A DNA stretch of 30,836 nucleotides, taken from IMG/VR virus record IMGVR_UViG_3300044610_000022, positions 1 through 30,836 of that record; one strand, 5' to 3'. Source of the DNA: a virus. A program made the translations under genes and the position numbers. Positions 11,633 through 30,836 of this stretch are shown in pieces. Under the pieces are notes generated by a model, which saw only the letters and a list, made by a program, of their open reading frames with translations, searched no databases and was not told where the DNA came from. Numbering within the stretch: the stretch's first letter is position 1; each line of letters begins with the position of its first letter.

Positions 11633-12061
11633 TTATAGCATACCTTCAGCAGCTAATTTTTTTTTAATTAATCGTTCTAAATAAATTAAAGAGTTCTTTT
11701 CGTTCTCGCTTGAATCGTTTGAGTAAGGTACGCTCAAGTCTATGCAGTTCATTATCTTGTCAATCTTTTCTTTTAGCACATAATCAAATCCGTTATTTGC
11801 TTGTCTAACTACTTTTAAAGCGTGAATAACTGTGCTATGGTCTTTGTCAAAGAATCTTCCTGCTTTGCTCAGGTGCATATTTTCTATTGCTAACCAAACC
11901 ATACCTAACTGCCGCCATTGCATTACTTCTCGTTTGCGTGATACTTGGCGCATATACTCCAGAGAAAAAGGACAAGCTATTAGAAAATCCTCAAAAACGA
12001 ATCTTGTATTTTTAGGAAATGATTTCTTTGTGTCTGTAATTGATTGTATGTTATAATTCAT
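11633..12061 (-). CDS. DnaA domain IV-like DNA-binding protein
   Basis: A 142-residue protein whose centre matches the C-terminal DNA-binding domain of DnaA. VSRKREVMQWRQLGMVW (about 40-56) corresponds to the helix with the basic loop. AGRFFDKDHSTVIHALKVV (about 67-85) carries the DHSTV signature that reads the DnaA box. There is no Walker motif or AAA+ domain. It may bind DnaA-box-like sites at a phage origin, compete with host DnaA, or act as a transcription regulator. It overlaps the following Cys-rich gene region by 4 bases and lies mid-operon. Confidence 0.85.
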   Translation of the reverse strand: MNYNIQSITDTKKSFPKNTRFVFEDFLIACPFSLEYMRQVSRKREVMQWRQLGMVWLAIENMHLSKAGRFFDKDHSTVIHALKVVRQANNGFDYVLKEKIDKIMNCIDLSVPYSNDSSENEKNSLIYLERLIKKKLAAEGML

Positions 12062-13208: not shown

Positions 13209-13469
13209 CTAAATATTGAATCGCGTCAACGTTAATTTCACTTGAAAAATTTTTGTTTCGAAAATTTCCATTTTTACAAGCGATTTTTTAAATTTTAAAT
13301 TGTTATTCAATGCAATGATATAAACATTATCCCCGTTAACATCGAATTTCAATTTTTCAACTACCGCCCGCCCGCATATTGATTTATAATACTGAACGTT
13401 TTGTGACGTGTAAACCGCAGCAGTATTGATAATTAAGTTTGTTTGCAATAAATGTAATCTCGTTTTCAT
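13209..13469 (-). CDS. First gene of early operon, possibly frameshifted near its end
   Basis: The frame from the ATG at 13469 gives 86 residues (MKTRLHLLQTNLIINTAAVY..., NGDNVYIIALNNNLKF). After a run of six A (minus strand; 13284-13289) the reading frame ends in an unremarkable Lys/Phe-rich tail. One base back, another frame continues as IACKNGNFRNKNFSSEINVD and IQYLVKQDLGLIK, stopping at 13180; it looks more protein-like. So the intact product may be about 97 residues and end at 13180, through a natural or programmed frameshift or a homopolymer error. It is the first gene after the promoter at 13507-13537, where phages often place regulators or host takeover genes. No family recognised. 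Confidence 0.55.
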   Translation of the reverse strand: MKTRLHLLQTNLIINTAAVYTSQNVQYYKSICGRAVVEKLKFDVNGDNVYIIALNNNLKFKKSLVKMEIFETKIFQVKLTLTRFNI

Positions 13470-13537: not shown

Positions 13538-13611
13538 CTTTTACACAATTATTTTTACTTTTTTTTTTGATTTATTTTTGAAAGCCTTATAAACAAAGGG
13601 AAGTAGGATGT

Positions 13612-23872: not shown

Positions 23873-25732
23873 TTAACCAAACGTTGCGTTATTCACTCTA
23901 TTCCTATCTAAAGACTGAGCAGTCGTTACATCTCCACTTACTACATAGGCTTGAATTAATCCCTCTCCTAATCCTGCTAATGGATTAGTTGCTTGAGCGT
24001 TTCCTACTAAGTTAAAGTTAGGAGTGATAACTGAACCACCGCCGCCGCCACCGCCGCCGCCACTTGGTGTAGCTGAAGCACTAATAGAACCGCTACCTTC
24101 AAACTTTTGTGATGCTATTTTAGCTACGTTCCCTAATCCTGCTGCTACGGCTATACCTGCTGCGATAGCACCTCTAATAGGCGATGTAGGGTCAGGCAAT
24201 GGCAAGAACTGAGATTGATACGCACTAACCGCACTCTGGTAAGTTGTAATTACTGCTGCCGCTATACTTGCTGCCTTTTGTATCTCAAATGCTCTCTTAG
24301 CTTGTTTCTCTCCTTTCTTAGCAAAGACTTCGGATAAGTCAGAGATTAATGTTAAACCTTGTAAAACTGCTGCGTATTTTAATTCTTGAAGTTTTGCTAT
24401 TCCTTCTTGTTCTCTTGCCCACGCTTCCTCTTGTCTTATTTCATCTGCTTGTTCTGCTGCTAATCGTTCTGCTCGTAAAGCATCTTCCATAGCCTTCTCT
24501 TCTTCTGCGGCTTTTGCTGCTGCATCTAACTTTCTTTGGTAGGCTTGTTCTTGTCTAATTTCATCAAGTTCAATCTGCTCTAAATCAAATTTAGCTTTGT
24601 CTTCAGCAAGTTCTTTTAGCTTATCATTCTTTTCTTTTTCGTCTGCTACTCGTTTATCGTTTGCTTCTTTCTGTGCTTGTCTACGAGCATCCGCAGCTTG
24701 TTTATCTATAGCTTGTATTTGTAGCTGGAATCCTGCTTGTTGGTTCTTTAATTCTGCTAAAGCCTTTTTAGATTCTGCAATAGCCTTCATTCCTTCTTCT
24801 TCTACTTCTTTAGGGTCAAAGATTAATGAAGCAGTCCAATCCATTACTTGGTCTTGCAAGTTCCAATCCTTACCTAAAAATGCGCCTATCTCGTCTACGG
24901 TTTTTAAGAGTAGGTTTATAGGTGCTAAAATAAATTGAAGTATTCCTTTAAGTATCTCTTTATTTCGCTGCTCGGCTTGTATCTGTGCTTTTAAAGTTTG
25001 CTCCTGATTCTTAATAGATATTTCATAAGCCTTTATAGCTTCATCTGTTTGCTTTATTTTAAGCTGAAGTATTTGCTTTTCGGTAAGTCCTTGTAGCTTT
25101 AAGATGTTATCTTGAGAATCTAAACTCTCTAATTTTTCTTTCTGTAGGTCTACGTCTTTTTGTGATTTAACATTTAACGCTTCCTGCTCTGCGCTAACTC
25201 CACTAATAGCACTTTTAATGTCATCCCAATAAGCAACTAAAGTACCTACCGCCACAACTAATAAACCTATTCCTGTAGCTGCAATACCTGTCCGAATTCC
25301 TTTTAACGCATCCGCTGCTACTGCTCCTAATTGCTTAAAGCTATCTTTAGCTTCCAACAATCCTTGAACACCTTGAGATAGTGCCATAGCACTCTGTACC
25401 TTAAGCAAAGTCTTCTGTACGCTTTCAGATTCTACACCTATTAAACCTAAAGCACCTTCAAAGGCTTGAAACCCATTTAACGCACCGCCAATAGAAGCAG
25501 ATAACGCATTGAATTTAGCATCTGGATTAAAGGCATCTGTTAAGGCTTTAGCATCTCCAATAGCATCTTTTAATTCCGCTGCTTTCTTCGCTGCTTTAAC
25601 GGCTTGTTCAGAAGTTGCACCGAACTTTTCTGCCATAGCAGTAACTTCATTCTGTGCTGCTCTTAGTTGCGATTTAAGACTTCCTAACGAGTCACTCTTA
25701 ACCTCTAATTCTATTACTTTCTTTTCAGCCAT
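23873..25732 (-). CDS. Tape measure protein
   Basis: A 619-residue protein built of helices and coiled coils: LKSQLRAAQNEVTAMAEKFG at the start, a hydrophobic stretch GIRTGIAATGIGLLVVAVGT (about 143-162), a long Glu/Lys/Ala/Gln helix (about 330-450), then QKAASIAAAVITTYQSAVSA, and GAIAAGIAVAAGLGNVAKIA. This is the standard layout of tape measure proteins that set tail length and fill the tail tube. A nine-Gly run (about 557-565) precedes the C-terminal part. The modest length suggests a short siphophage tail. Its ATG shares one base with the stop of the 51-aa gene upstream. Confidence 0.88.
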   Translation of the reverse strand: MAEKKVIELEVKSDSLGSLKSQLRAAQNEVTAMAEKFGATSEQAVKAAKKAAELKDAIGDAKALTDAFNPDAKFNALSASIGGALNGFQAFEGALGLIGVESESVQKTLLKVQSAMALSQGVQGLLEAKDSFKQLGAVAADALKGIRTGIAATGIGLLVVAVGTLVAYWDDIKSAISGVSAEQEALNVKSQKDVDLQKEKLESLDSQDNILKLQGLTEKQILQLKIKQTDEAIKAYEISIKNQEQTLKAQIQAEQRNKEILKGILQFILAPINLLLKTVDEIGAFLGKDWNLQDQVMDWTASLIFDPKEVEEEGMKAIAESKKALAELKNQQAGFQLQIQAIDKQAADARRQAQKEANDKRVADEKEKNDKLKELAEDKAKFDLEQIELDEIRQEQAYQRKLDAAAKAAEEEKAMEDALRAERLAAEQADEIRQEEAWAREQEGIAKLQELKYAAVLQGLTLISDLSEVFAKKGEKQAKRAFEIQKAASIAAAVITTYQSAVSAYQSQFLPLPDPTSPIRGAIAAGIAVAAGLGNVAKIASQKFEGSGSISASATPSGGGGGGGGGSVITPNFNLVGNAQATNPLAGLGEGLIQAYVVSGDVTTAQSLDRNRVNNATFG

Positions 25733-25887
25733 TACTTAAGTCTTTTACTCTTTAACTCTCTTTTACCTTGTTTGTATGCTTCACGTACGCTTGTAGGTAT
25801 TTTATACTTACCTTTTGCTATGTCGATGAACTCCGCCTTTCCGTAGAAATCGTCTATCTTAAGCAGTTCTAAAATATTCTTAATCAT
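25732..25887 (-). CDS. Small basic protein before the tape measure gene (51 aa)
   Basis: From the ATG at 25887 a 51-codon frame begins MIKNILELLKIDDFYGKAEF and ends in a Lys/Arg-rich tail. It overlaps the tail-tip gene upstream by 4 bases (ATGA) and the tape measure gene by one base (TAATG), so it is surely placed for translation. It fills the whole gap. Function unknown; a tail assembly factor is possible. Confidence 0.7.
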   Translation of the reverse strand: MIKNILELLKIDDFYGKAEFIDIAKGKYKIPTSVREAYKQGKRELKSKRLK

Positions 25888-28229
25888 ACTTCTTGTGTTA
25901 GTGTTAGGATGTCTACCTCTGTGCTTCCGTCCTCGTTTGTATAAGTTAATTCTATATCGTAAACGTTAGTGTTTCCTTCTTCTCCTCTTAGGTATTGGTT
26001 AAACTCCGTTATTAAATCGTTTGAGTTTTCTGCGATAATTGTATAACTTGGAGTTACTACAGGATAAGTAAATACAACATCCGTGTCTGTAGTAATTGTA
26101 GCAGCACTTGCCGTTACACCTGTAGCACCCATATCTAAAGCAACCTCAGTTACTCCAGTAGGTAGCAATACACCCACCGTTACAGTTAATACTCCCTTTC
26201 CTGTCTTAGGGGCATTTAATGCCTTTATAGAACGAAAATCATTTAACAAAACTAAATCCACATCTCCTGTGGTTGTTTCCGTTTTTATCTCGTTTATGAT
26301 ATACCTTTTGTCCCTAATTAATATCCTATCATTCATCTTTAGGCTTGTAAGAATAGGAGTGGGAAATAATCCTTTGCAACTTACTAACCTTTGTTTCTTA
26401 GAGTATAAATTAGCTAAGTAGTTATAGTAATATACTTTAAAGATATTTCTTTCAATAGGCTCTAAAAAGAATGTGCTATTATCTTGACCAAAGTTTAAGG
26501 TATATTTTGAAGAGTTATAAATTAAATCCTGACCGAAAGGCATATAGCTTGTTATATGATTTGTAGACGTTCCATTATTAAAGTAGAATGATACCGTCTT
26601 TTGCTCATTCATATACAATAAAATAGGCTGCGGAATAATAGGTGCTAAAGTTTTGTCTAAAGAGTAACCTACTTGTAAATCCGTTCCTGTAAACTTTTGG
26701 TGGCAAAGATTCTCAAAAGGTAATTGTATTACATATTCACCGCCATCGTAATCATATACCTGCTCTAAATCTCCATATTCACGATTATTATTAGCTGCAA
26801 ATTGCGTGTTTAAAATAGTAGCACTTTTTAAATGCTTAAATCCTATCTTTTTATACAACTTTACACGCTCGTAATCTATGCTATTTATATCAATATGTTT
26901 TGTTACGTCTATTATTCTTCCTTTGCTATACCAATCCTCTAAAGGTTCAATCTGAAATATAGTAGGAGATAAACCATAACAAGTTAAATTAAACTGCTTT
27001 AATATACCTGCTACGAAATCGCTTATCTTCATATCTGGAAAATTGCCAGAAATATCTAAATCTTTTGTAAATGTGTTTTGAGCAACCGTTACTACTGCGT
27101 AATCGTTAAAGTTTCCGTTTTGGTCTGTAGGAGAACCATTAATTAATAGCGTTAAATCACACCAATAATCTATAATTACATCACCTTCCGCTCTACCTAC
27201 AAAAGAATACTCAGTATCTAAAGATAAGTCCCAATCAACAAGCGTAGTGTATTCTGCTGCCGTACCAAAAAAACCACTAACCGTAGCTATAAGATTATCG
27301 TTTTCGTATACGTCTATAAAAATATCACTCGTTGTAACATCTGCTCCACCTACTCCGTAAGCATTTACATAAATCTGAATCTGCTTAAGTATTCCAGGCA
27401 CCGTGCCGCCTATTGAGTTTTCAGGGTCGTAATTAAACTTTAAAACATTCCTATCTAATATAGCTGCCGTACCTACTCCCGTTGCCTGACTTACCGCAGT
27501 AAAATCTAACGCTTTCCTATCTGAGTAAAAAGCAAACGTATCTTTATTCTTTAGCCATAAGTAACAATTCGTAAACCTCTTGTCATTTAGAAATAACCCT
27601 TGAAAATCTATATCGTATTTCGTTTCTATAGCTTCAAATACTTTGCTTATTCTTACCGCAGGAAACAACTCGTAGTAATGCATATGGTGGCTATTCTGGC
27701 TTATATCTTGCGCTCCACCACCGCCATACTGCCAAACTCTACTACTTGAGATTAAAGGATAGCGTATGTCATAACTTGAACTTGATGTTATTCGTGTTTG
27801 AACTTCTGCACCGTTGTATTCGTGTGTGTAGGGGGACATATCTAACGTGTTTAGCTTGTCTTCTCCGAAGTAATCTTGTAACGTTCTTAAATCGCCGTAA
27901 AACGTAATGCTATAGCTTTGTGCTAAACCCTTTTTTACATTCGCCTTTTCGAGTTGTATCTTACCTGTTCTAAATGGAATTAAATCTATCTCTATCCTTG
28001 CATCCCTTCTTACTTGATAGTCGTAGCTATTATCTATAGCATTCTCGTAAAAGTGTTTAAATATAGCGTTGTTATGCTCACTTGCAGGTACGGTAAAACT
28101 CTGTGATAAATCAGTAAATGTTTTAGCAATATCTTGTACGTTTTGAATGCTCGATGTTATAGAAATCTTTTCGTCATCGAATAACTCTAAACGCTCACCT
28201 TCAATATATATCTGTACTTTTCTTTTCAT
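25884..28229 (-). CDS. Tail tip / baseplate-like protein
   Basis: A 781-residue protein beginning KRKVQIYIEGERLELFDDEK, with ITSSIQNVQDIAKTFTDLSQ and FTVPASEHNNAIFKHFYENA, a pattern I know from large tail proteins of Bacteroidota phages. The bulk is beta-rich with inserts, and a region near 670-720 looks like a small Ig-like fold (VLTVTVGVLLPTGVTEVALD). Position upstream of the tape measure gene and size suggest a distal tail or baseplate hub protein. The exact role is inferred. Confidence 0.75.
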   Translation of the reverse strand: MKRKVQIYIEGERLELFDDEKISITSSIQNVQDIAKTFTDLSQSFTVPASEHNNAIFKHFYENAIDNSYDYQVRRDARIEIDLIPFRTGKIQLEKANVKKGLAQSYSITFYGDLRTLQDYFGEDKLNTLDMSPYTHEYNGAEVQTRITSSSSYDIRYPLISSSRVWQYGGGGAQDISQNSHHMHYYELFPAVRISKVFEAIETKYDIDFQGLFLNDKRFTNCYLWLKNKDTFAFYSDRKALDFTAVSQATGVGTAAILDRNVLKFNYDPENSIGGTVPGILKQIQIYVNAYGVGGADVTTSDIFIDVYENDNLIATVSGFFGTAAEYTTLVDWDLSLDTEYSFVGRAEGDVIIDYWCDLTLLINGSPTDQNGNFNDYAVVTVAQNTFTKDLDISGNFPDMKISDFVAGILKQFNLTCYGLSPTIFQIEPLEDWYSKGRIIDVTKHIDINSIDYERVKLYKKIGFKHLKSATILNTQFAANNNREYGDLEQVYDYDGGEYVIQLPFENLCHQKFTGTDLQVGYSLDKTLAPIIPQPILLYMNEQKTVSFYFNNGTSTNHITSYMPFGQDLIYNSSKYTLNFGQDNSTFFLEPIERNIFKVYYYNYLANLYSKKQRLVSCKGLFPTPILTSLKMNDRILIRDKRYIINEIKTETTTGDVDLVLLNDFRSIKALNAPKTGKGVLTVTVGVLLPTGVTEVALDMGATGVTASAATITTDTDVVFTYPVVTPSYTIIAENSNDLITEFNQYLRGEEGNTNVYDIELTYTNEDGSTEVDILTLTQEV

Positions 28230-29842: not shown

Positions 29843-30298
29843 TTAACAGATACTCATTTCGTTTTTAACCAACACATCGAATGTCATTGTCCACCCTGCT
29901 AAAAGATTCTCAAAGCGTTCTGTGAATGGTTCGCAATTAGGAACACCATCTATCTGAAATAAATCCGTGTATAACGTGCCTCGTCTCATTACTTCATATA
30001 CTCGTTGAAGAACTGCTAACTGAGTATTCAATACATCTTGTTCGTTATCGTTGCCTGTAAATACATCTGTAGTTTCGTCTTTTGATATATCGACAATATC
30101 CATTGCAATGATGCTTACGTTAAACCTCAACACGTTTTCCTCAAACGATGCCGAGTTAACCATAATGTGAGACAAAGGAAATATAGTCTGTTTAGCTAAG
30201 TCAACATTAAAGATGCTCCCCTCTGTAACTGAATTAACAAACGGAGAACTATTTAACTCCGTCTTTAACTTATCTATAATCGTGTAGAATCCTACCAT
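29843..30298 (-). CDS. Tail terminator/completion-like protein
   Basis: A 151-residue protein (FYTIIDKLKTELNSSPFVNS, SHIMVNSASFEENVLRFNVS, LNTQLAVLQRVYEVMRRG) with alpha-beta pattern and no Cys in the core. The position next to a gp10-like protein and the fold-like pattern of an N-terminal helix and four strands fit a tail terminator of siphophages. It overlaps the end of the minus-one-frame chaperone-like gene by 7 bases. Moderate confidence; no decisive motif. Confidence 0.6.
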   Translation of the reverse strand: MVGFYTIIDKLKTELNSSPFVNSVTEGSIFNVDLAKQTIFPLSHIMVNSASFEENVLRFNVSIIAMDIVDISKDETTDVFTGNDNEQDVLNTQLAVLQRVYEVMRRGTLYTDLFQIDGVPNCEPFTERFENLLAGWTMTFDVLVKNEMSIC

Positions 30299-30564
30299 TT
30301 TTGTTGTTGCTTTTTAATTTGTCTAATTTCTATTTCCGTCTTTTGCTTCTCGAATGTTAGTAAGGTCAAACACTTAACCAATGGTTCTCTGGTAACTGCG
30401 TCAAATCTTGTAATGTCTCCTTTAGCGAGTGCATATATGCTTTGATACCATCCCCATTGTTTTCCAAATTGAGTTTGCTCTGAATAGTCGTTAAGTCCAT
30501 CCCCTTCATCTCCTTCTCCAAATAGTCCATCAAAGCCGTCAACAATTCGCTTCCTAAAGTCCAA
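30292..30564 (-). CDS. Tail-assembly-chaperone-like product, minus-one frame (GT-like)
   Basis: This frame encodes FGKQWGWYQSIYALAKGD, ITRFDAVTREPLVKCL and FEKQKTEIEIRQIKKQQ, clearly protein-like. It has no ATG; it opens upstream through a run of nine T (30563-30571), where the frame is minus one relative to the gene it overlaps. A TTG at 30564 is the only plausible separate start. I infer that it is made as a frameshift extension, as in the G/GT pair of lambda-type tail chaperones. The overlap of about 200 bases in two coding frames is longer than usual. A separate TTG start or a homopolymer error are the alternatives. Confidence 0.7.
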   Translation of the reverse strand: MDFRKRIVDGFDGLFGEGDEGDGLNDYSEQTQFGKQWGWYQSIYALAKGDITRFDAVTREPLVKCLTLLTFEKQKTEIEIRQIKKQQQKW

Positions 30565-30836
30565 AAAAAAACCGATGCACCAAACACTACATTTAAAGGT
30601 GCATACTTCATTACTTCCGAATAGTTAGCAGTTCCGTTGTACTCTTCTATTTCGTATTTTTCTCCTTTACGCTTTGTGATAGGTCTATACATTGCTGCCA
30701 TAGCTTTATGCATCGTGTCCCAATCTGTAAGATTGCGTTCTATATCGATATACTCACCCCAAGATATATTCTCTAAGTCAGGTACAAATCCGAACTCTAA
30801 ATCTCCTATCTTAAATCTGTGTTCAAACTTTTGCTT
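30366..30836 (-). CDS. Tail-assembly-chaperone-like protein (5' end cut by window edge)
   Basis: The open frame runs from the window edge to the stop at 30366 (156 codons seen). It contains KFEHRFKIGDLEFGFVPDLE, ISWGEYIDIERNLTDWDT, HKAMAAMYRPITKRKGEKYE and VFFWTLGSELLTALMDYLEK. The pattern WGEYIDIE...MYRPI and the helix after SVFF match tail assembly or virion proteins of flavobacterial phages as I recall them. At GTTTTTTTTTGG (30561-30572) the minus-one frame leads into the product at 30292. By analogy with lambda G and GT this protein would chaperone the tape measure protein. Its N-terminus lies outside the window. Confidence 0.68.
   Translation of the reverse strand, partial: KQKFEHRFKIGDLEFGFVPDLENISWGEYIDIERNLTDWDTMHKAMAAMYRPITKRKGEKYEIEEYNGTANYSEVMKYAPLNVVFGASVFFWTLGSELLTALMDYLEKEMKGMDLTTIQSKLNLENNGDGIKAYMHSLKETLQDLTQLPENHWLSV
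30563..30571 (-). other. Run of nine T: candidate ribosomal slippage site
   Basis: In the frame of the longer gene the codons read GTT TTT TTT TGG. Phe tRNAs can re-pair perfectly one base back, so a minus-one slip enters the frame that runs to 30292. No strong stem was checked for beyond the run; the G-rich stretch at about 30500-30520 may help pausing. Confidence 0.6.

Follow-up and report, generated by a model that had tools for sequence, protein, structure and literature searches.

Gene layout at the end of the record

The stretch of DNA analyzed here, referred to as the window, is a linear virus record of 30.8 kb with a G+C content of 34.6%. Two overlapping open reading frames are located at its end, both on the minus strand. 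The zero-frame ORF (30369..30836, stop codon at 30366-30368) is open from the record edge down to its stop and encodes a shared N-terminal domain followed by a zero-frame C-terminal tail. The intact protein in relatives is 228 aa long, as in the complete homologue at L008:2785-3471, which has an ATG start; the window thus contains the last 156 of 228 codons and lacks the first 72, which lie beyond the record end. The second ORF, in the -1 frame (30295..30564, stop at 30292-30294), encodes the C-terminal domain of a predicted transframe product.

The two frames meet at a putative slippery run of nine Ts on the minus strand (30563-30571; A9 on the plus strand), which is read GTT TTT TTT TGG in the zero frame. 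The 197 nt that follow the run, up to the zero-frame stop, are dual-coded (30366..30562, minus strand), and in the third (+1) frame of this strand a TAG at 30554..30556 ends 9 nt past the run. A preliminary description of this DNA had reported the meeting of the frames at a nine-T run, the unusual length of the dual-coding stretch and a -1 frame devoid of ATG. All three observations were reproduced, and the -1 ORF offers no start-like codon other than a TTG that overlaps the run.

The next gene (29843..30298, minus strand, 151 aa) matches phrog_30964 and is called tail-terminator-like from gene order only; its ATG overlaps the stop of the -1 ORF. The tape measure protein gene (23873..25732, minus strand; phrog_9483, E 2e-14) is found five genes downstream of the pair, the distance given in the preliminary description, and the genes in between encode proteins of 151, 177, 359, 781 and about 50 aa. 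The smallest of these is an unlisted lysine-rich gene at about 25734-25890 on the minus strand, directly preceding the tape measure gene. In relatives, the gene order is methyltransferase, small terminase, large terminase, the two-frame gene and the tail-terminator-like gene (named from order only), followed by three larger genes, a small one encoding about 50 aa and finally that of the tape measure protein.

Conservation of the T run

Several hundred loci were gathered with the proteins of both frames, distant members and motifs upstream of the run as queries. Among 248 unique related sequences the run consists of T9 in 229 and T10 in 19, and is shorter in none. The T9 sites mostly share the phase of the window (218 sequences), with 11 in a second phase, and the T10 sites are spread over any of the three phases. 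Of the 248 sites, 77 were found via the upstream motifs and are therefore not selected on the run. Elsewhere in the coding sequence of the same loci, a T run of at least nine occurs a single time in 190 kb. The second ORF is in the -1 frame relative to the first in all 248 sequences, as expected for the -1 fusion proposed in the preliminary description. In 226 of the 248 relatives the third frame reaches a stop 9 nt past the run. This stop would terminate the product of a one-base deletion, but may simply result from the F-[RK] codons of the -1 frame.

The only cultured phages with the run are one pair, P12024S/L, the remaining members being uncultured. Nonlabens phage P12024S carries the same T9 between its genes 38 and 39, and a further set of P12024S relatives showed T9 or T10 in 45 of 45 cases. 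The run is also present in three metagenome-assembled genomes classified as Bacteroidota. T9 is uniform among about 24 near-identical contigs that come from different metagenomes, which speaks against a misread run length, named in the preliminary description as a possible refutation. No indel within the run that fuses the frames at the DNA level was seen among the relatives surveyed, and based on this result and the uniform T9 of the near-identical contigs, DNA-level phase variation was rejected.

Selection on both frames

Selection was analyzed by a four-way substitution count in 40 independent pairs of relatives. In the overlap, the zero frame displayed a dNN/dSN of 0.62 [0.55-0.70] and a dNS/dSS of 0.31 [0.23-0.42], and the -1 frame a dNN/dNS of 0.37 and a dSN/dSS of 0.18. 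Before the run, constraint is absent from the -1 frame (dNN/dNS 1.39) and the zero-frame dNN/dSN is 0.29; past its stop, the zero frame is likewise unconstrained (1.38). The controls ranged from 0.84 to 1.51 overall, with 1.51 for the third frame and 0.84-0.96 for the unused frame of the downstream gene. Zero-frame synonymous change, which the preliminary description had proposed as a check, decreased from 0.385 to 0.114 in the overlap. Thus, purifying selection acts on the overlap in both frames, both of which are coding as first described; selection on the -1 frame starts at the run, and that on the zero frame ends at the zero-frame stop.

The openness of the zero frame was also compared with that of simulated sequences. 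For the window, none of 2000 draws of synonymous codons for the -1 protein matched the observed openness, and permuting the codons of this protein left the zero frame open as far in 1.2% of cases. Across the family the zero frame continues for about 50-266 nt past the run. In the most distant lineages the tails are short, about 50-133 nt past the run, and not significantly open, so the long overlap is a feature of part of the family. Taken together, the conserved run, the constant -1 frame of the second ORF and the selection on both frames make it very likely that a transframe fusion is produced along with an independently selected zero-frame tail.

Other readings of the overlap were weighed against these data. 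Homopolymers are error-prone in sequencing, but 248 unique sequences obtained in many projects share the same run, as do P12024S/L, and a decayed gene is at odds with selection in both frames; the probability of either is negligible, and sequencing error was rejected on the basis of the survey. It is highly improbable that the -1 ORF is a separate, internally started gene. This is how gene 39 of P12024S has been annotated, from an internal ATG, and BFVD holds short stand-alone entries; however, a -1 frame ATG of any kind is present in only 18 of 248 sequences, no lineage has a conserved start of the kind that would have marked two separate genes, conservation starts at the run itself (FFLxFRxR), and both domains are matched by single-ORF proteins. 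An independent start was thus rejected from the start codons and the point where selection begins. A zero-frame tail that is not a functional protein, the frame merely avoiding stops or mirroring -1 constraint, is a better candidate, although still improbable. It would account for the short tails of the most distant relatives (77 and 50 nt in the P12024S-like L234 and L236), for an openness that is not significant in L064, L149, L223 and P12024S, and for the conserved NGDGI, which follows from QWGWY in the -1 frame. Against it stand the zero-frame ratios of the overlap, both of which fall below the range of the controls.

In P12024S (L147 9339-9506), gene 39 corresponds to the -1 domain called as a 55-aa gene, and is probably a mis-annotated transframe product.

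Predicted protein products and relatives

The AlphaFold2 model of the zero-frame product has a confident N-domain of mixed structure and a poorly predicted tail (mean pLDDT 78.9), and the -1 domain is predicted to be helical with moderate confidence (71.2). Searches of the PDB by fold and by sequence gave no match, Pfam gave a credible match to neither product, and the phage collection queried with the -1 protein gave no match. BFVD viral models of the same family include single proteins that match both domains. Members of the Duneviridae (Flavobacterium phage laban gp017, phage 2A and Cellulophaga phage Ingeline_5) have a homologous N-domain (hhalign probability 97.5, E 7e-12), and their C-terminal part matches the -1 domain weakly (probability 39, E 3e-4). 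Unlike in the window, both parts are encoded in one uninterrupted frame in these phages, without T9. These natural one-ORF fusions, together with the BFVD models, support a single transframe polypeptide.

The homologous gene of Flavobacterium phage 6H (L232 1501-2380) is broken, and is one ORF in phage 2A (L233). The break was considered as a second case of frameshifting and rejected, since a local segment that differs between the two phages accounts for it, and not a T run.

Probable mechanism joining the frames

The preliminary description attributed the joining of the frames to Phe-tRNAs slipping back by one base. In this reading, tandem Phe-tRNAs would slip on U_UUU_UUU; programmed -1 ribosomal frameshifting is used by lambda-type tail chaperones (PMC5009743). 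An in-frame T_TTT_TTT heptamer is present inside every run, in all phases, so ribosomal slippage is possible. The remaining Ts might be held by amino-acid needs, namely V/L/I before Phe-Phe in the zero frame and L/F in the -1 frame, and such needs could fix T1 and T9. However, neither a shorter run nor another heptamer was found among the 248 sequences, and a length of at least nine is kept in three phases with compensating flanks. The stimulators that usually, if not always, accompany such sites were not found either: no 3' RNA structure was detected (mean z -0.21 over 101 representatives), conserved RNA structure was absent on both sides of the run, and Shine-Dalgarno-like motifs occurred in just 2 of the 101 representatives. 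We therefore regard the ribosomal explanation as rather unlikely.

The conserved quantity appears instead to be the total length of the run, which is kept at 9-10 in all three reading phases. On a tree of the N-domain there are about 10 changes of run phase or length, at least seven of which, to or from the common state, are forced by well-supported branches. Sequences in which the two Phe codons are preceded by a single T have 2-3 Ts after them in 16 of 16 cases, representing 5 origins, and those with two Ts before have one T after in 218 of 222. A post hoc estimate for this compensation between the flanks is about 2e-7 (baseline 4-of-87). The residue following Phe-Phe is Y, W, S, C, F or L, which is the exact set with T-initial codons. 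On a run of 9 As or Ts, slippage of bacterial RNA polymerase is efficient, and the hybrid of this polymerase spans 9-10 bp (PMC5009743); transcriptional realignment uses a Tn class with n > 8 (PMC3711429). The family shares with known sites an A/T run of at least nine, kept independently of phase. A point against this mechanism is that T9 is close to the minimum for polymerase slippage. Given the conserved total length, the compensating flanks and the stimulators that were not found, polymerase slippage is preferred over ribosomal slippage, and the sequence evidence suggests that the frames are probably joined by RNA polymerase slipping on T9 with the insertion of one U.

According to the proposed mechanism, one gene would yield two proteins with a common N-terminal domain of about 163 residues. 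Normal U9 transcripts would encode the 228-aa protein with its zero-frame tail of about 65 residues. Slippage of RNA polymerase on T9 would add one U to a fraction of the transcripts, and ordinary translation of the U10 transcripts would continue in the -1 frame, giving a protein of about 253 aa with the conserved helical C-terminal domain (FFLxFRxR...WGWYxSIYxLAxGD...CLxxLxFEKxK). A transcript one U short would run into a stop about 3 codons past the run. Both products would then probably serve tail assembly much as lambda gpG and gpGT do. We infer all three elements, the production of the fusion, RNA polymerase as the agent and the tail-chaperone role.

Known slippage sites such as those of Thermus dnaX, Shigella mxiE and spa13 and some IS elements likewise contain a conserved A/T run of at least nine, and the run here, like those sites, fits the 9-10 bp RNA-DNA hybrid. 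Unlike the known cases, the present putative site is in a gene of a phage structural module, is shared by a large group of phages and has both frames under selection downstream of it. A search of open-access papers yielded none that describes a tail chaperone with transcriptional slippage, which is not proof of absence.

Possible function in tail assembly

The preliminary description also proposed that the pair encodes a lambda-type tail chaperone. The functional analogy to gpG/gpGT stands: in both systems one gene of the tail module provides a shared N-terminal domain, to which a -1 fusion adds a C-terminal domain, as indicated here by sequence and selection evidence. The homology to known chaperones turned out to be weak, and the position of the gene speaks against the assignment. 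The gene follows the terminase and is not located between the major tail protein and the tape measure, it has no clear homology to gpG/gpGT in sequence or PDB fold, its T9/T10 run differs from the heptamers of varied sequence in that group, and its zero frame runs on for some 50-266 nt, under selection in most lineages.

A two-product tail or neck protein with a function other than tail-assembly chaperone is a serious, though less probable, reading. It fits the location directly after the terminase large subunit and five genes from the tape measure, and solved chaperone structures give no match. On the other hand, there are weak links to tail and chaperone proteins, with phrog_166, a tail protein, matched at E 4e-4 in 13 of 36 members and BFVD chaperone entries at E 0.28-0.75, and no other chaperone candidate was seen in the module. 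From these links and the analogy, a tail-chaperone-like identity is plausible. With all elements combined, we consider it somewhat better than an even chance that this large phage group, whose known hosts are Bacteroidota, makes its tail-assembly products via programmed RNA-polymerase slippage on T9/T10, with 130-260 nt dual-coded in most lineages and both C-termini selected.

If so, the ratio of two structural assembly products would be set during transcription in a large phage group, so that the host polymerase and nucleotide pools, rather than the ribosome, could influence it. The slippage site would be one of deep conservation in DNA viruses, and the structural gene that contains it would have a long overlap under selection. 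In many phage genomes this gene would be mis-annotated, its -1 domain being either overlooked or listed as a gene of its own.

Other homopolymer runs in the window

Two further long runs were noted in the window. An A9 run on the coding strand (11657-11665) is located 24 nt from the end of a gene for 142 aa (11633-12061, minus strand). Judged by eye, the product of this gene resembles the C-terminal DNA-binding domain of DnaA; slippage at the run would alter only the last residues of the protein. The gap between the genes at 13469 and 13699 contains a T10/A10 run (13559-13568), and a GGGAG/CTCCC stretch resembling an inverted repeat is close by.
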